Source: a virus. From it: DNA of 37,165 nt. The notes below the pieces were generated by a model. The model was not told the origin of the DNA. It worked only from the letters and a program-made list of their open reading frames with translations, and did not search any database. The position numbers and the translations under genes were made by a program. Shown in pieces: positions 942 to 37,164 of this stretch. Location: the IMG/VR virus record IMGVR_UViG_3300028800_000203, positions 1 to 37,165 of that record. One strand, written 5' to 3'. Position 1 is the first letter of the stretch; each line of letters begins with the position of its first letter.

Positions 942-2294
942 TTACAAATCGTCCCTAAAGACGCTCGGTAGCGTGCTCTGCTCGCCATAAATAGCTTCCA
1001 TATATCTCTTATCTAACTCTTCAGGTGTCAATCCATCCCTAATTTTAGGTAGACTAACACAAAGATAACGCATTGCATCACAGGCGTGGCTAAATTGATT
1101 GTGTAATGGCTGTGCTTTGTACACCTTACGCTTAGAATCAAACTCTTGCCGATAGTTCTCTAGCGACCTAATAAGCTGATGGCACTTAGACTCGTCTATG
1201 TAGATCTTACTCAGGGCAGACCTTACTGATTCAATTCCGTCCATTATTGACACATCATTAGACGTGATAAATTTGAGCCCCAGGTTCTTTGCTTTTTCCA
1301 GTCGGGTCATACCGCTACCCCATTCCCGAACGGCGATGTCATGGGGCGCTATGTGCTTGCCATAAGTATACGGCTTAGAATCAAGCACCTTAATGTAATG
1401 CTCAAGCCCCTCTTTGCTGTTTTCGTAGAAGTCGATAATACGAACCGTAGCGCCTATCGACTGATAGAATATTATTGAGGTACTATCGCGCACACCAATA
1501 TCCCAGGCTGTATGGACCTTAAAGCCCGTCTCCCATGGCACATCGCCAATCTGGCGGTTGACCCGCATACGATCGATATACTTGGTATAGTACGCACCCT
1601 CTATACCTAATTCAAAGCTATTAAAATATTCTTGTTGTATTAAATCCTCAGACATAATACCTTCACGCTTCTCGCGCTCTATATCTTCCATGGATATGTG
1701 CTTGGTATCTTCCACTGTTAGCTTAAAGCAGTACCAGGATGGGCTCTCCTTGGCGATATTATACAGCTCCCAGAGATGATTACGTCCCCGGACTGTGCTG
1801 ATGAATACAGCCCATCCTCCGTTGTGTGTGAGTATTGGTCGTATGTACTGATACGCTCGTGGATCCTGTAGGGCATACTCAGAAAAGACACAGCCAATAG
1901 GGTTAGACCCAACCAGCGAATCTACGTTGTCTGAACCGATTATTTGTATTAAAGATCCGTTTGTAAGCTTTATTTTCATCTGTTGAGAGTTAGATGAAGC
2001 GATTAGGCATTTCGGAATAAAATCCAAAAACTTGGTCCCATCGCCAAGCATGCCATCCCAAATTACCTTCAGACCTTGCGCATAAGTGGGCAGTATATAC
2101 CAAAACACACCAGGACGGCGTATAGCAGCGCGCACCATCAAGTTCCAGCAGGCAACGTCCTTACCAGCCCTGCGTGGAAGAATCGCGAGGACCTTGGTGT
2201 ATTTTTTATTTTCTACCGCATCAAGAATGGGAAGCTGGTACCAGCGGGGCTTAAATTTACTAAGTGTAATTTTTGATTCAACTGAGACATCCAC
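942..2294 (-). CDS. terL: Terminase large subunit
   Basis: This is the ATPase-nuclease motor that drives DNA into the procapsid through the portal. The 450-aa protein has a Walker A-like RRAGKD at residues 41-46, a Walker B-like CVFSEYAL around 135-142 with E139 as the likely catalytic Glu, and a coupling motif near ISTVRG (165-170). Its C-terminal RNase H-like nuclease shows acidic residues D265 (WDIG), D319 (PHDI) and D406 (CDAMRY). The start is a GTG at 2294 with a weak AGGA; it overlaps the 3' end of the HNH gene by 17 bp. A second, diverged version of the N-terminus lies beyond that endonuclease gene (2985-3041), so the present 5' end may be a replacement. Confidence 0.93.
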   Translation of the reverse strand: MDVSVESKITLSKFKPRWYQLPILDAVENKKYTKVLAILPRRAGKDVACWNLMVRAAIRRPGVFWYILPTYAQGLKVIWDGMLGDGTKFLDFIPKCLIASSNSQQMKIKLTNGSLIQIIGSDNVDSLVGSNPIGCVFSEYALQDPRAYQYIRPILTHNGGWAVFISTVRGRNHLWELYNIAKESPSWYCFKLTVEDTKHISMEDIEREKREGIMSEDLIQQEYFNSFELGIEGAYYTKYIDRMRVNRQIGDVPWETGFKVHTAWDIGVRDSTSIIFYQSIGATVRIIDFYENSKEGLEHYIKVLDSKPYTYGKHIAPHDIAVREWGSGMTRLEKAKNLGLKFITSNDVSIMDGIESVRSALSKIYIDESKCHQLIRSLENYRQEFDSKRKVYKAQPLHNQFSHACDAMRYLCVSLPKIRDGLTPEELDKRYMEAIYGEQSTLPSVFRDDL

Positions 2295-2940
2295 TCTTAA
2301 TCCTATTAGGCCATCCCCTGTGGGAAATGTGTTTACAATTTATACATTGAGTCGTTCCCCCACTCCTAAGGTCTCCTCCAGATTTTATAGAAATTGTGCC
2401 ACAAGCGCACTGGCATTCATAATATCTGTGTCCAGGTTTATGCTTTACCCTTGTCTTGACGGTCCACTTTCCAAATACTTTTCCCGGCATGTCATCCTTG
2501 AGAGTTCCATTCATTCCTGGATGATTCTCAGCCCTAGTTGCCCATCGACAATTTCCGGGCTCGTAATGGCCATCATTATCTATTCTATCGACTTCTTTAT
2601 TGCCAGGACGATGGCCCATGTCAGCAAAGAAGTTCTCGAATTTAAGCCATCTGTCGCAGACTTTAATGCCGCGCCCACCGTAATATTTATATATTTTAAC
2701 CCTAGGATTCTGGCATCTTGTAAGAATTCCAGCCCATATTTTATATATGCCAGTCTTAGACATTCCGTGTCTTTTAAATGCACAATCTCGACACATGGTT
2801 GACATGCCTAATCGAAGAGAAGTACCTATGACTACAACTTCATTTCCGCAATCACATCTACATAAATAGTGTTTACAGTTTTGCTTTGGCTTAGGTTGCT
2901 CGGAAAGAACAACCCACTTATTAAATCTAGATCCGATCAT
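2278..2940 (-). CDS. HNH-type homing endonuclease
   Basis: This 220-aa protein resembles free-standing phage HNH endonucleases. Residues 66-135 hold the family core: IYKIWAGILTRC, then YYGGRGIKVCDRW (87-99), then the nuclease stretch VDRIDNDGHYEPGNCRWA (117-134). The core is flanked by two copies of a small zinc-ribbon-like unit (1-59 and 153-207), each with a G-x-x-F-x-K-W start and a CxCxCG-type cluster plus a later CxxC; these are probably DNA-recognition arms. Such enzymes cut an allele lacking the insertion and are copied in by repair. Its 3' end overlaps terL, and a relic terL 5' end lies just upstream, marking the invaded gene. Confidence 0.88.
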   Translation of the reverse strand: MIGSRFNKWVVLSEQPKPKQNCKHYLCRCDCGNEVVVIGTSLRLGMSTMCRDCAFKRHGMSKTGIYKIWAGILTRCQNPRVKIYKYYGGRGIKVCDRWLKFENFFADMGHRPGNKEVDRIDNDGHYEPGNCRWATRAENHPGMNGTLKDDMPGKVFGKWTVKTRVKHKPGHRYYECQCACGTISIKSGGDLRSGGTTQCINCKHISHRGWPNRIKSGCLS

Positions 2941-2984
2941 ATAAATACCTATGTTTAAATATAGTATATCCTACAATCGGAATA

Positions 2985-3041
2985 TCACCATCGGGGTTTA
3001 AATTTATTGAGAGTTACTTGTGCTTCAACAGGCAATGACAT
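2985..3041 (-). pseudogene. Stranded 5' end of terL (18 codons)
   Basis: A strong ribosome binding site (GAGGAGGAG) precedes an ATG at 3041 that opens MSLPVEAQVTLNKFKPRW and then stops at TGA. The functional terL begins MDVSVESKITLSKFKPRW. The two match at 11 of 18 residues, and the last 21 nt match at 18 positions. The HNH gene lies between the two copies. The simplest reading is that this is the original terL start, cut off when the endonuclease arrived with a substitute 5' end. It may still be translated as an 18-aa peptide. Confidence 0.8.
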
Positions 3042-3090
3042 GGGCTCCTCCTCGGTTTGCCCAAAGATACCATGTATTAAGCGCCTATAT

Positions 3091-9546: not shown

Positions 9547-10275
9547 TCACTGACTTATACCATACAAACTAAACGTCCCTGAGGATATAACATTCGTTAA
9601 TCCACCCGCAACATAAAATTGTATAGCATTAATCGAGGTTGACGTTGAAGAGCTATTTAAATATTCCCCAGCGCTAACAGAGAAGCCCCCAGAAGCAAAG
9701 TTATACCACATTCCCCGGGTCATATACGCAGTACCTGAGTTCGATGCTCCTGAGCTTATATTGTACATCCACAGGATTCCACTAAAGGGCGTATTAGATC
9801 CCGTTCTTCCCGTTAGCTGATTACTATATCCCGTCACATCAGCCGTACCATTAAGTCCCGTTGCCGAACAATAGCTAATATCTCCATTGAGATTGTTATA
9901 CCATGTAGATCCATTGTCAGTGGATATCTGAAACTGCAAGAATATATTCGAGTGGACGGGGTCACAGATAACACTTTGGAATATAACAACATACGTAGGA
10001 TATGCATTGGTCAGCGAACTAAAAGTAACCACAGAGCTTGAAGCAGTCTTCGTTCCTATCAGGGTCCAACCCCCTGCGCCAGTGGGCGCAGATTGAAACG
10101 ATGGTGCCATAGTAGCCCCATTAGATCTGAGTACGTCCGTAGCAGATCCTGCGCCTGTGGTGACCACCTGTGTACCATTGTAGTAGGCAACACCATAAGA
10201 AGTCTGGGTATTGGTAAATGTGCCACCCGAGACTATACCAATTGGATTAGTAGTATTTATAGCACTATTTGTCAT
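9547..10275 (-). CDS. Tail fibre/receptor-binding paralogue 1
   Basis: This 242-aa protein is the last member of a tandem family. It has an N-terminal linker (TNSAINTTNPIGIVSGGT), a GGT-type fibre repeat with YYNGTQ and VLRSNG, and then a Ser/Thr/Gly-rich beta domain of about 170 aa. That domain contains STDNGSTWYNNLNG and ends INAIQFYVAGG...ISSGTFSLYGISQ. The C-terminal layout is shared with the genes at 10284, 11030, 12833 and 13553. Such domains usually bind host surface structures. The ATG follows AGGATACCCC. It diverges most from its neighbours in the central loops. Confidence 0.75.
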   Translation of the reverse strand: MTNSAINTTNPIGIVSGGTFTNTQTSYGVAYYNGTQVVTTGAGSATDVLRSNGATMAPSFQSAPTGAGGWTLIGTKTASSSVVTFSSLTNAYPTYVVIFQSVICDPVHSNIFLQFQISTDNGSTWYNNLNGDISYCSATGLNGTADVTGYSNQLTGRTGSNTPFSGILWMYNISSGASNSGTAYMTRGMWYNFASGGFSVSAGEYLNSSSTSTSINAIQFYVAGGLTNVISSGTFSLYGISQ

Positions 10276-10283
10276 GGGGTATC

Positions 10284-11021
10284 CTATTGCACCAAGGCAT
10301 ATAAACTTGCATATCCACTCACGATGGGATTGCTTCCACTGTATATCAACTGTATAGCATTTACATTCTCAGAATCAGATGTAGTTGCTGCGTATACCTG
10401 AGTAAATACTGCAGCTACCCCTATACCCTGCTGCGCATACACCGTACTTCCAACCACCGAAGGATAGATTCCCGATGTATTAGTTGCCGGATTATATATA
10501 TAAAGAGTCCCACAGGTGCCTGCGTTCGATGGGGATGCAGGGGTACTGGCAGCCGTGTCGTTTAATAGTATAGATCCACTATCAGATGCACTCTTTGCGC
10601 CCGTTATCCCCCCAATCCACGAAACAAGTCCACCCGTATACGAACTTATATAAGTCGAACCACCGTTAGTGGACATCAAAAGCTGTAGATAGGCCGATGT
10701 TGACGCGGTAGTAAGTAGATTATCAAGCACCAACGCATACGTAGAGTAGGTAGATGATATAGAAGTAAAGACCAAACTCGCCGAATTATTTGCTGTTAAT
10801 GTCTGAAGCAATATCCACTCTCCCGATCCTGCCACCGTTTGAAATGAGGGAGCACTTGATCCATTGGAGAGCAATACCTGACCCACAGTTCCCGGCGATA
10901 TCGAGGTCAGTGTTGTACCATTGTAGATTACCGTACCATTGGTATGCGCAAAGCTTGAAACACCCGTCCCCCCCGATGATATCGATATAGGATTAGTGGT
11001 ATTTATAGAACTATTTGTCAT
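10284..11021 (-). CDS. Tail fibre/receptor-binding paralogue 2
   Basis: The ATG at 11021 is preferred over that at 11027 because AGGA lies at the right distance and the product then begins MTNSSINTTNP, as in paralogue 1. The 245-aa product has GGTGVSSFAHTNGTVIYNGT, then VLLSNGSSAPSFQ and ILLQTLTANNSASLVF. The beta domain has STNGGSTYISSYTGG and ends NAIQLIYSGS...SGYASLYALVQ. The final motif departs from the usual SLYGIxQ. It lies 8 nt from paralogue 1 and belongs to the same late transcript. A receptor-binding role is inferred from family and position. Confidence 0.75.
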   Translation of the reverse strand: MTNSSINTTNPISISSGGTGVSSFAHTNGTVIYNGTTLTSISPGTVGQVLLSNGSSAPSFQTVAGSGEWILLQTLTANNSASLVFTSISSTYSTYALVLDNLLTTASTSAYLQLLMSTNGGSTYISSYTGGLVSWIGGITGAKSASDSGSILLNDTAASTPASPSNAGTCGTLYIYNPATNTSGIYPSVVGSTVYAQQGIGVAAVFTQVYAATTSDSENVNAIQLIYSGSNPIVSGYASLYALVQ

Positions 11022-11029
11022 CGCCATTC

Positions 11030-11758
11030 CTAACTAGATATACCAAAAAGACTAATAGATCCGGAAAGTATATTCCCTGACGTGAACTGGAAACTTATGT
11101 TCGTTATACCCTGCGTATCGGAAGTTGTTTTACCAAATCCCGTGGTCCAATTAAGCGCCGATGAGGTAGGGTGTCCCACATCTGCATAATACGCAGGATA
11201 ATAGGTAGCGGCATTCTGCGTCATGCTCATAAGAAACATAGTTCCGGATAAGGGTATTCCGCTCGTGGCGACACCAGGGGCGCTCACATAACAATAGGTA
11301 TTAGTGGAGGAAGAGCTTTGAATTATAGTGGCAATTCCAGTATATATGGGATACGAGTAATAGCCTGAATTATATGAAGACAGGTATGTTGAGCCACCAT
11401 CAGTTGACCATAGCATGCTAAACGTCTGGCTTGCGGTGTCTGGCACGATTCCATTAAATATGACGGCATAATTACTATAAGTACTCGTTGAAAATATCAA
11501 GTTTCCCGAAGTAGATGCAGTCAGGGTCTGGATAAGATTCCATGCGCCTGCCGAGCTGGGCAGCGCCTGATAGGTGGGCGCAGAGGAACCGCCATTACTC
11601 GTCAGCGCATATCCCGATGTTCCGGTAGTTGTGGAAGAAAGCTTCGTGCCATCAAAATAAACCGTTCCATTGGTATGCGAAAAGCTTGCAGTATTAGTGC
11701 CACCCGATACTATGCCGATAGGGTTGGTAGTGTTAATTTCACTATTGGTTACCATCAT
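11030..11758 (-). CDS. Tail fibre/receptor-binding paralogue 3
   Basis: This 242-aa paralogue starts MMVTNSEINTTNPIG and continues with SGGTNTASFSHTNGTVYFDG and ALTSNGGSSAPTYQ. Its beta domain has LIQTLTASTSGNLIF and STDGGSTYLSSYNSG and ends ISFQFTSGNILSGSISLFGISS. Its start overlaps the stop of the 275-aa gene by 4 bp, so the two are translationally coupled. The N-terminal 60 residues are closest to paralogue 2, while the C-terminal domain is strongly diverged, as expected for variable receptor-binding tips. Confidence 0.75.
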   Translation of the reverse strand: MMVTNSEINTTNPIGIVSGGTNTASFSHTNGTVYFDGTKLSSTTTGTSGYALTSNGGSSAPTYQALPSSAGAWNLIQTLTASTSGNLIFSTSTYSNYAVIFNGIVPDTASQTFSMLWSTDGGSTYLSSYNSGYYSYPIYTGIATIIQSSSSTNTYCYVSAPGVATSGIPLSGTMFLMSMTQNAATYYPAYYADVGHPTSSALNWTTGFGKTTSDTQGITNISFQFTSGNILSGSISLFGISS

Positions 11759-12582
11759 GTCACCGTTATATTACCGACTGAGTTAATGACATTCCATGCA
11801 GTATTGGCCGTGACACACACCAGATCTATAGTATCTCTTATTTGTGTGGATGCTAGCGATCCACCCGTCCCTGTGATCGTAGTGCTCGTGCCAAAGAATA
11901 TAGTCTGGCCTGAATTTTGAGCTATGAGCCATCCTCCAGCTCCCTTGCCAGTAACGGTAAGCCTCGTGCCAAAAACTGCTGTAGCAGGCAACGTCAGCGT
12001 TACCAATCCAGCGTTGTTGGCTACGTAACCAGTGTTGGCTACCATAGCCTGTGTAGTACCCGTGACCTCAACCCAGTTTTCTGCGGGAGCGGTCGACGAT
12101 ATGGTAACAGTGCTCCCTGAAGCAACGGTGGTTATCGATCCAGTTCCAACGATATTTAACACGCCGCCAGATGGAGTTGCGCTTCCAGAGTTGCCATCAT
12201 AGGTCGTTGCTACCGCGCCGGTAGTATTAAAGGTAATCGTATTGCCAGCGGCAGAAGTAGATATAGTAGTGCCGTTACCAAAAAGATTGATGACACCGGC
12301 CGCTGGGAATGCGGTTACTGCATTGTCAGCGGTCAGTCCCGTGACTGCACCCGAACCAGTAGTAAGTAAAGCCCATACAGCATAATTAGAGACAGGAGGA
12401 CTTCCAGCAGGTCCAGATAGACTGACGAGCTGGTAGACGTCTTGAGAGGTTCTATTAAGCCAAACGGTTCCCAGATAGAAATTTTGGTAATCATTTTGGG
12501 TGGGCGATCGGTAATATGCCACAAAGGGCACAGGGTTTATCGGATATGGAAGAGCATTGAGCCCATCATATAAAAGACTCAT
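11755..12582 (-). CDS. Tail fibre protein with the second C-terminal domain type
   Basis: This 275-aa protein begins with an attachment-like domain (PFVAYYRSPTQNDYQNFYLG, TVWLNRTSQDVYQLVSL) related to the N-terminus of the gene at 17479. Glycine/serine fibre repeats follow (residues 90-165). The C-terminal domain of about 105 aa has TGYVANNAGLVTLTLPATA, GAGGWLIAQNSGQTIFFG and SVGNITVT. That same domain ends the 762-aa protein, so the locus uses two distinct tip types. Its ATG overlaps the stop of a 47-aa gene (ATGA). Confidence 0.75.
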   Translation of the reverse strand: MSLLYDGLNALPYPINPVPFVAYYRSPTQNDYQNFYLGTVWLNRTSQDVYQLVSLSGPAGSPPVSNYAVWALLTTGSGAVTGLTADNAVTAFPAAGVINLFGNGTTISTSAAGNTITFNTTGAVATTYDGNSGSATPSGGVLNIVGTGSITTVASGSTVTISSTAPAENWVEVTGTTQAMVANTGYVANNAGLVTLTLPATAVFGTRLTVTGKGAGGWLIAQNSGQTIFFGTSTTITGTGGSLASTQIRDTIDLVCVTANTAWNVINSVGNITVT

Positions 12583-12722
12583 TGCTTAACTCCAGTCTCT
12601 ACCACGTAGACATAATCATTTTCTAAATCGACTAAACAAACAATAGGATCGGTACCAACATGTACTATCTCCAAGCTGGGTTGCGCACTGGTCCCCAGAA
12701 TGCTCATTATTATCCACCACAT
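12579..12722 (-). CDS. Small gene inside the fibre array
   Basis: ATG at 12722 behind AAGGAA encodes 47 aa: MWWIIMSILGTSAQPSLEIV, then HVGTDPIVCLVDLENDYVYV and VETGVKQ. The N-terminus is hydrophobic and short; the rest looks like a small beta unit. The stop overlaps the start of the 275-aa fibre gene (ATGA), strongly suggesting coupled translation, and an 18-bp hairpin lies just upstream. No family is recognised. A start at the inner ATG (MSILGTS) is possible. Confidence 0.6.
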   Translation of the reverse strand: MWWIIMSILGTSAQPSLEIVHVGTDPIVCLVDLENDYVYVVETGVKQ

Positions 12723-12738
12723 ATTACTTCCTTCACCG

Positions 12739-12788
12739 TATGGTACCTGTCATCTAGAGTTAAGGGTTCTTAGATAACAGATACCATA
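12739..12788 (-). other. Long hairpin between fibre genes
   Basis: Arms at 12739-12756 and 12771-12788 are complementary over 18 bp with two exceptions. These become G-U pairs in the minus-strand RNA, so that transcript can form an unbroken 18-bp stem with a 14-nt loop. No T run follows; the ribosome binding site of the 47-aa gene comes next. It may be an RNA-processing or attenuation site. The remainder of the 12723-12832 gap is AT-rich with no gene seen. Confidence 0.65.
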
Positions 12789-12832
12789 TTCATATATGAT
12801 TTTAAAACTTACTCTTAATAAAAGATTCCCGT

Positions 12833-13543
12833 TCATTGCTGTACGCCATAAAGAGAAAAGCTGCCGGAAGTTATAACGCCCGTCGAATATGCGAGCTTTA
12901 TGTTATTAATAGTACTCGTAGAGCTATTAGTACCGCCCAACATGTAATAAAGTGCCCCCGTGCTGGTATTATTCCTAATCTCCCCTCGATAACAAGCAAC
13001 AGCTCCAACCGGAAAATAAAGGTAAATTGCACCATTTAACAGGAAATTTGCCGTACCTATAACATGAGTCAGTGGAGCGAACGTGGTCGAATTAACATTG
13101 GTTATGCCGCCAGAAAAGTTATAGGCAAAGTAATTAATGCCACCTTGATAACCAGTAGCTAGATAACTACCACCATTATTTGTTGACCATGTCATTTGTA
13201 GCTGCGCGCTGGAGCTTCCACTATTTATATCATTAACCAACAAAAGATACGTTGTGAAGGCGGAAGTGAGATAAGTAGCCGTAAAGGTTAAACTGGAAGA
13301 GTTTGAAGCTGTTAATGTTTTCAGAAGGGTTATTTTGCCGGGGACCGCTGCAAAATAAGGCGGGTTTCCGGCCCCTTGACTCGTTAATACCATTCCCGAT
13401 GCACCATTTGGAACTACTTGCAAGGGGCTCGTAGATGTAGTTCCCGCTACCAGCACATTATAAGCAGCCACCGATGAAACACCAGTTCCACCGGCACTTA
13501 CATTAACAGGAAATCCTGTATTATCAGCATTGTTTTTTGCCAC
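12833..13543 (-). CDS. Tail fibre/receptor-binding paralogue 4
   Basis: This 236-aa protein starts at a GTG behind AAGGAGA. It begins MAKNNADNTGFPVNVSAGGT, an alternative linker to the INTTNPI type. VLTSQGAGNPPYFAAVPG and ITLLKTLTASNSSSLTF follow. The beta domain has STNNGGSYLATGYQGG and ends INNIKLAYSTGVITSGSFSLYGVQQ. It is closest to paralogue 5 in the C-terminal domain. The hairpin at 12739-12788 lies just downstream, possibly lowering expression of the more distal paralogues. Confidence 0.77.
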   Translation of the reverse strand: MAKNNADNTGFPVNVSAGGTGVSSVAAYNVLVAGTTSTSPLQVVPNGASGMVLTSQGAGNPPYFAAVPGKITLLKTLTASNSSSLTFTATYLTSAFTTYLLLVNDINSGSSSAQLQMTWSTNNGGSYLATGYQGGINYFAYNFSGGITNVNSTTFAPLTHVIGTANFLLNGAIYLYFPVGAVACYRGEIRNNTSTGALYYMLGGTNSSTSTINNIKLAYSTGVITSGSFSLYGVQQ

Positions 13544-13552
13544 ACAATCTCC

Positions 13553-14257
13553 TTATTGAACTATTCCATAGAGAGAAACAGTGCCGGATGTTATATTCCC
13601 CGAAGAATAAGAGAACTCTATATTGTTAATAAACGTAGTCCCTGAGTTCGTTCCACCGACACTATATACATGCCCATCACTGGTTTGACAGTTTCCAACC
13701 ATGGCGGCGATAGCACTTTGAGGCAATGTGAGATACATAGTTCCACTGTAACTTGTAGAAGTTGCCAGTGCAGCTGAAAGCGGAGTCGTTGTTGCTGAGT
13801 TAACGTTAGTAAATGTGGTGCTATTATATGCAAAATATAATAGACCTGATTTATAGTTAGCATTGAGATAGCTAGATCCATTATTAGTAGACCAGTCCAT
13901 ATTCAACGTAACTGAGTTGCTCGCATTAACAAAACTATTGATAACGATCATGTACATAGTATAAGTACTTGTGAGATAAGTACTTGTAAACGCAAGACTC
14001 CCTGAAGAAGATGCTGTTAGGGTGTGAAGTAAAACTATACTTCCGGTAGCAGGAGCAGCGCCCCATGTAGGAAGCGCACCAGCGCCTGCGCTCGTTAAAA
14101 CTTGTGACAAGGTTCCCACGCCTGAAACATTTTGAAGAGCCGCTGCCGATGTCGTGCCACCACAAATAACCGAATATGCCGTAAAACTAGTCTCTCCCGT
14201 GCCTCCCTGACTCACTACAATTGGAACAGGCATATTGGTAGCATTATTTGTAGACAT
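13553..14257 (-). CDS. Tail fibre/receptor-binding paralogue 5
   Basis: This 234-aa protein has the linker NNATNMPVPIVVSQGGT, a fibre repeat (GGTGETSFTAYSVICGGT, QVLTSAGAGALPTW), then LLHTLTASSSGSLAFTSTYL. Its beta domain has STNNGSSYLNANYKSG and ends INNIEFSYSSGNITSGTVSLYGIVQ. The TAYxVxCGGT stretch also occurs in the 762-aa fibre, indicating exchange of segments among members. It is 7 nt from the preceding 762-aa gene in the transcript. Confidence 0.77.
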   Translation of the reverse strand: MSTNNATNMPVPIVVSQGGTGETSFTAYSVICGGTTSAAALQNVSGVGTLSQVLTSAGAGALPTWGAAPATGSIVLLHTLTASSSGSLAFTSTYLTSTYTMYMIVINSFVNASNSVTLNMDWSTNNGSSYLNANYKSGLLYFAYNSTTFTNVNSATTTPLSAALATSTSYSGTMYLTLPQSAIAAMVGNCQTSDGHVYSVGGTNSGTTFINNIEFSYSSGNITSGTVSLYGIVQ

Positions 14258-36931: not shown

Positions 36932-37041
36932 ACCTAGGGCAAAGTGTTACGCTACCTAGGGCAAAGTGTTACGCTACCTAGGGCAAAGTGTTACGCTACC
37001 TAGGGCAAAGTGTTACGCTTTCTAGGGCAAAGTGTTACGCC
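36932..37041. repeat. Right-end iteron array
   Basis: Five 22-bp units, at 36932, 36954, 36976, 36998 and the variant at 37020-37041, are identical to those at 1-110. The array lies directly upstream of the 78-aa gene, with its start facing away. Confidence 0.9.
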
Positions 37042-37164
37042 TGTCCAAAAAAAGGGTTGTTCTTTCGGGCTCTTTTCCCATTTCTCCATTCTATAAAGAG
37101 ATAAAGACATTAAGACATTATCTCTTTATCGCTATCGCCTAATCCTGTGCGCCTAAGGGCTACA
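36932..37164. repeat. Right copy of the terminal direct repeat
   Basis: Matches 1-233 with a single internal difference (37092 t for g). That change removes the outer base pair of the AT-rich inverted repeat. The last base of the window no longer matches, so the repeat ends within one base of the window end. Confidence 0.9.

Follow-up and report, generated by a model that had tools for sequence, protein, structure and literature searches.

The window, i.e. the whole 37,165-base stretch of viral DNA analyzed here, carries the 5' end of the large terminase gene terL twice on its minus strand: a stranded copy (the relic) comes first, followed by an HNH gene and then by the intact terL (Table 1). 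The relic and the new terL copy each have their own start codon and their own ribosome-binding site. The HNH ORF lies intact between them, with its last 17 nt shared with the beginning of terL. Its product has a zinc-ribbon–HNH–zinc-ribbon architecture and matches PHROG 374, a family of free-standing phage HNH homing endonucleases; it matches nothing in Pfam, and no relative with a solved structure is found. In the following it is assumed to be an active nuclease. The coordinates given for the locus in the preliminary description, 942–3041, are correct.

Table 1. Features of the terL locus, in window positions
Feature	Positions	Strand	Details
Ancestral terL leader, SD AGGAGG at 3052–3047	3042–3070	minus	best match among 109 relatives is L001
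Relic, stranded terL codons 1–18 (MSLPVEAQVTLNKFKPRW)	2988–3041	minus	ATG...TGG 3041–2988, then TGA 2987–2985
Spacer, 44 nt, relic stop to HNH start	2941–2984	minus	terL similarity not significant
HNH endonuclease ORF, 220 aa	2278–2940	minus	phrog_374, E=5e-64
Substitute terL 5' end, codons 1–18 (VDVSVESKITLSKFKPRW)	2241–2294	minus	GTG start, SD AGGA at 2304–2301
Functional terL (large terminase), 450 aa, GTG start 2294	942–2294	minus	phrog_2, E=9e-25

The stranded duplicate of the terL start is real and not a product of chance. Relic and new end are identical at 11 of 18 residues with both starts counted as Met, or at 10 of 18 if the GTG is read as Val. An HMM of the terL N-terminus, made from 123 relatives, gives the relic 15.7 bits, while the best background score is 8.2 bits; for this background both strands were scanned over as much as 4 kb ahead of 128 terL genes, leaving out the intein-split terL genes L045 and L053 and the second genuine case, L205. 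A stranded terL start is found at two of the 128 related terL loci, the window and L205. The 200 nt upstream and the 200 nt downstream were compared blindly for 218 non-redundant HNH ORFs. The highest score, 25, is that of the window, and none of 2171 mismatched-pair controls reaches 22. The diverged copy with a ribosome-binding site beyond the HNH gene, as first proposed from the letters alone, is therefore upheld. Its similarity to terL ends at codon 18, and the junction between the two lies near this codon. A continuation of the relic beyond codon 18 and its TGG (TTCCGATTGTAG, resembling LPIVD) was considered and rejected as not significant (p 0.06–0.37).

A duplicated short 5' end around an endonuclease gene might also be explained by a spliced intron, in which exon 1, formed by relic codons 1–18, would be spliced to codon 19 of terL and the HNH gene would lie within the intron. 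In phage ICP1, terL is spliced, its N-terminal exon is short, and an endonuclease gene lies nearby (PMC10448857). However, no group I or group II intron of Rfam matches the region at the gathering threshold or even at E<=5, and the downstream copy is complete, with a start and a ribosome-binding site of its own and none of the 18 in-frame codons missing. A spliced intron would require a second copy of exon 1 at the intron 3' end. We regard this explanation as highly improbable, and splicing from 2988 into terL, which the preliminary description had named as the observation to speak against its reading, finds no intron family in its favour. The locus does not have the form of an intein either, as the relic ends in TGA and the HNH gene and terL are separate overlapping frames.

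The nearest relative of the window is L001, with a terL 86% identical and the first 200 aa of the portal protein 89% identical. L001 is without HNH and has a single terL start, 193 nt past the upstream gene. Of the terL leaders of 109 relatives, that of L001 matches the relic leader best, with TTGGGC and AGGAGNAGCCCATG present in both, and the relic thus occupies the ancestral terL start. In codons 1–18, relic and new end share 37 of 54 nt, relic and L001 share 36, and new end and L001 share 36. With this equidistance, the foreign 18 codons in the window cannot be named. In common with the new end L001 has the residues SVESKITL, and in common with the relic it has TAACTCTCAATAAATT. The coding codons do not decide which end is old, and the proposed origin of the new end in another phage is therefore plausible but unproven at the window. 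Between the new end and L001 the differences at the three codon positions number 4, 2 and 12, and between the relic and L001 they number 8, 2 and 8; from this pattern, in small numbers, the new terL 5' end looks to be under constraint. A donor search with the back-translated relic peptide AQVTLNKF returned 33 contigs, none of them with a terL relative. Relatives of the upstream 530-aa gene were sought and none was found. GTDB genomes contain a single terL relative, which belongs to a Methylococcaceae bin.

The same architecture is observed at the portal gene of sister phages. HNH genes related to that of the window lie directly before the portal gene at 14 of 109 portal loci, and a stranded portal start is found upstream of the HNH start or fused to it. 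In L064 the relic MPLFPQLGPQYYE is fused to the HNH protein and the new portal start reads MPLFPVLEPQYYDE. The stranded starts of the other phages are MLFPQLYLQY (L007/L008), MLFLCPQLAP (L401), MLFPHL (L402), MLFPFPQVAP (L399/L219), MLLSFPQFAP (L400), MPFTQLDP (L204) and IIFPQL (L391). Taken together, the 13 portal-adjacent HNH genes that could be tested have higher portal-start scores than the remaining 205 HNH genes (p=0.004); scores above every control are reached by L064, L007 and L401. No clear relic is seen at the portal-adjacent HNH genes of L397, L405, L179 and L038. The HNH reading frames of L391 (2821–2838) and L401 (2532) begin at the old portal start. As several frames do so, the nuclease would have taken over the translation start of the host gene, and in L391 and L401 it appears to use the ribosome-binding site and the start codon of that gene.

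For three of these loci a relative with an empty site is available. The leader and relic of L391 (contig 3300048893_000113, also L018) match the portal leader and start of its empty-site relative L025 at 55 of 58 nt, and portal codons 21–60 match at 115 of 120 nt. In contrast, the new portal codons 1–20 of L391 match L025 at only 42 of 60 nt (Fisher p=3e-6). For L401 and the empty-site L197, leader and relic are related, the new 5' end is 65% identical and the body 85%. The difference between body and 5' end is 0.20 in both pairs, and in 15 HNH-free control pairs it has a mean of 0.004 and a maximum of 0.15, so that all controls lie below 0.20. The third pair, L400/L197, shows no 5' drop in similarity. 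A native stranded end and a foreign joined end are hence seen at the portal gene in L391/L025 and L401/L197. Relatives with the start of the relic and the continuation of the host gene had been predicted for terL; it is at the portal that they are found, with a difference only in the first ~20 codons, those replaced. The portal gene of the sister phages would therefore illustrate the mechanism better than terL of the window. To be noted, the portal genes of L025 (5371) and L197 (8119) appear to start at ATT, in the contexts AAGGAGACGGCC-ATT-ATC-TTC and GGGAGACAACC-ATT-TTA-TTT, with no in-frame ATG, GTG or TTG nearby.

The serious rival is plain mosaic recombination, in which an illegitimate crossover between two phages near the terL start imported the HNH gene together with a terL 5' end, the old start stayed behind, and the HNH gene is not the driver. 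It is serious because L205 has the same scar around an ORF without nuclease match. There, a second stranded terL start (TTG, LTPIVLDKFSPRPYQSPIIDPK) is found at 1148–1213, corresponding to relic codons 1–22 with 77.8% over 63 nt, followed at 1292–1663 by an ORF of 123 aa that contains a CxC...CxxC cluster, and then by the intact terL at 1663. The 123-aa ORF has no family match and is not a recognisable nuclease, which indicates that ordinary illegitimate recombination can make such a scar. Duplicated terL fragments without HNH are also held by L003 and L009. Against this explanation, the scars recur at HNH genes, both at portal and at terL, far above controls, and the foreign segment in L391/L025 and L401/L197 comprises only about 20 codons beside the HNH gene, as in break repair and not as in block exchange. 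We consider mosaic recombination unlikely as the general cause. As to the other counter-observation named in the preliminary description, both copies in relatives free of any endonuclease, such relatives have a single copy, with L205 as the exception.

In L003 (5774–5887) and L009 (2569–2694) the extra terL fragments are internal or 3' ones downstream of the intact terL, and they are close in sequence to the intact terL of the same genome (within-genome duplications). Several other terL genes carry insertions. Likely inteins are seen at the Walker A motif in L036 (1264–1860), L045 (3957–5210) and L053 (4182–5000) and at residue ~125 in L047, L049 and L050, where the continuous ORF has 794–821 aa; L059 and L060 are also listed with likely inteins. 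Further insertions at residues 224 and 405 are found in L034, L056 and L058.

The HNH protein might instead be a domesticated factor that aids packaging like the HK97 gp74-type HNH proteins, with the relic being incidental. HNH genes beside terL can aid packaging, as discussed in two reports (PMC10448857, PMC12724721). But most relatives have a terL without such an upstream HNH gene, only 10 of 128 having one within 2.5 kb, and the HNH family is also found at portal, helicase and deaminase genes, sites that a packaging role cannot explain. This possibility is thus very unlikely. Where an HNH gene lies directly upstream of terL in L018, L020, L024 and L212, the HMM detects no relic.

A nuclease gene between a complete gene and a stranded end of that gene, the arrangement of a terminus-replacing homing element, is found at terL of the window and at the portal gene of L064, L007, L391 and L401. 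That an endonuclease gene brings along a replacement end for its target gene, so that splicing is not needed, is well supported by these sequence comparisons. The replacement strategy that the preliminary description proposed for a phage terL stands in its core idea, mostly through the portal loci; for the window, its foreign new end is plausible but unproven, and its HNH cut near codon 18 is putative. The HNH gene is probably the cargo of a homing element which settles in a conserved late gene by replacing the 5' terminus of that gene. In the proposed mechanism, the endonuclease would cut an uninterrupted terL within the first ~20 codons, and a phage already carrying the element would serve as repair template. 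Recombination would take place on one side in the leader and the severed 5' end and on the other side in the terL body. The product would consist of the old leader and 5' codons of the recipient (the relic), the HNH gene, and the 5' codons of the donor in frame with terL. The new allele would escape cutting through its substitute end, whose sequence at the cut site is different, and a further round of homing would use the relic as left homology arm. As the host gene is never interrupted, no intron or intein would be needed. We infer the cut site, the resistance of the new end, the repair route and the foreign origin of the new end in the window from this comparative analysis.

This mechanism is similar to that of the WHO elements, in which a nuclease gene homes into the essential FBA1 gene of Torulaspora and Lachancea yeasts and replaces one end of it (PMC7282813). 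The old FBA1 end is left as a fragment that acts as recombination arm, the new end is resistant, and no splicing is involved; this homing model was proposed and partly tested, and cleavage by WHO was tested (PMC7282813). As in the phage loci, a nuclease gene lies beside an essential gene with one end duplicated and stranded. However, WHO concerns the 3' end of a yeast nuclear gene and an HO-like, intein-derived nuclease, whereas the phage loci involve the 5' ends of terL and portal and an HNH nuclease and are known from sequence. In Allomyces atp6 and in Glomus atp6, atp9, cox2 and nad3, a mobile endonuclease ORF brings a foreign terminus and the native one is stranded beyond it (PMC3630166). 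These ORFs replace 3' (C-terminal) ends of mitochondrial genes and encode LAGLIDADG or GIY-YIG enzymes, unlike the 5' end, HNH and phage gene of the window.

Among phages, T4 Seg/Mob (PMC2988022) and ICP1-like HNH/T5orf172 nucleases (PMC10448857) are likewise free-standing and intronless, occupy boundaries between genes in the vicinity of essential ones, terL among them, and show flank co-conversion. The insertions described are intergenic or in split genes, and the passages found in the two papers say nothing of a 5' end left stranded beside a replacement start. In skunaviruses each phage has several HNH genes that are free-standing, and some of these lie close to terL or portal; terminus duplication is not mentioned in the passages searched (PMC12724721). 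In the open-access literature, phage HNH genes near terL are described and stranded and substituted 5' ends are not, by which novelty is unproven. The phage loci may be read as terminus-replacing homing, previously known at 3' ends (WHO/FBA1; atp6), carried out here at 5' ends by HNH enzymes.

We lean slightly towards a whole class of such elements, in which an HNH gene with a substitute 5' terminus invades the first 6–20 codons of essential late genes such as terL and portal, borrows the old start for nuclease expression, and keeps the severed start as homology arm, so that the N-termini of packaging proteins are repeatedly rewritten. The borrowed start would comprise, with the same slight preference, the leader, the ribosome-binding site and sometimes the start codon. 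Such a class would account for selfish nucleases residing within essential phage genes that have neither intron nor intein, and it would carry the fungal 3'-end strategy over to 5' ends in bacteriophages. Through it, terminase and portal proteins could also diverge abruptly at their N-termini. With an HNH gene, a 54-nt relic and empty-site relatives, the locus would offer a compact bacterial system for the order of cutting, repair and resistance.

A 3'-end counterpart of this class may exist at helicase and deaminase genes. HNH genes between two copies of the end of the preceding gene are observed in L120 (3959–4645), L099 (3998–4834) and L118 (3974–4640). In L120 the HNH protein ends with MPPAFEGFM and the preceding DnaB-like helicase with MPPAFEGFF, the old helicase end having turned into the HNH C-terminus. 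The end of a cytidine deaminase is found on both sides of the HNH gene in L099, and that of a small gene in L118. These three are leads, apparent 3' versions of terminus replacement. In the flank comparison, 14 of 218 HNH genes reach a score of at least 16, against 6 of 2171 mismatched-pair controls, and some of these 14 are low-complexity or paralogous neighbours and not cases. The flank matches of L017, L203, L065 and L062 were rejected as neighbouring paralogous genes, and those of L114 and several GC-rich loci as low-complexity.

Elsewhere in the window, a terminal repeat of 233 bp is found (1–233 equal to 36932–37164, 99.6%), and the window is therefore probably a whole genome. Inside this repeat, positions 1–109 hold five head-to-tail copies of ACCTAGGGCAAAGTGTTACGCT. 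A row of related, tail-fibre-like genes of ~240 aa with N-termini TNSxINTTNPI... extends over 9547–14257, suggesting tandem duplication.
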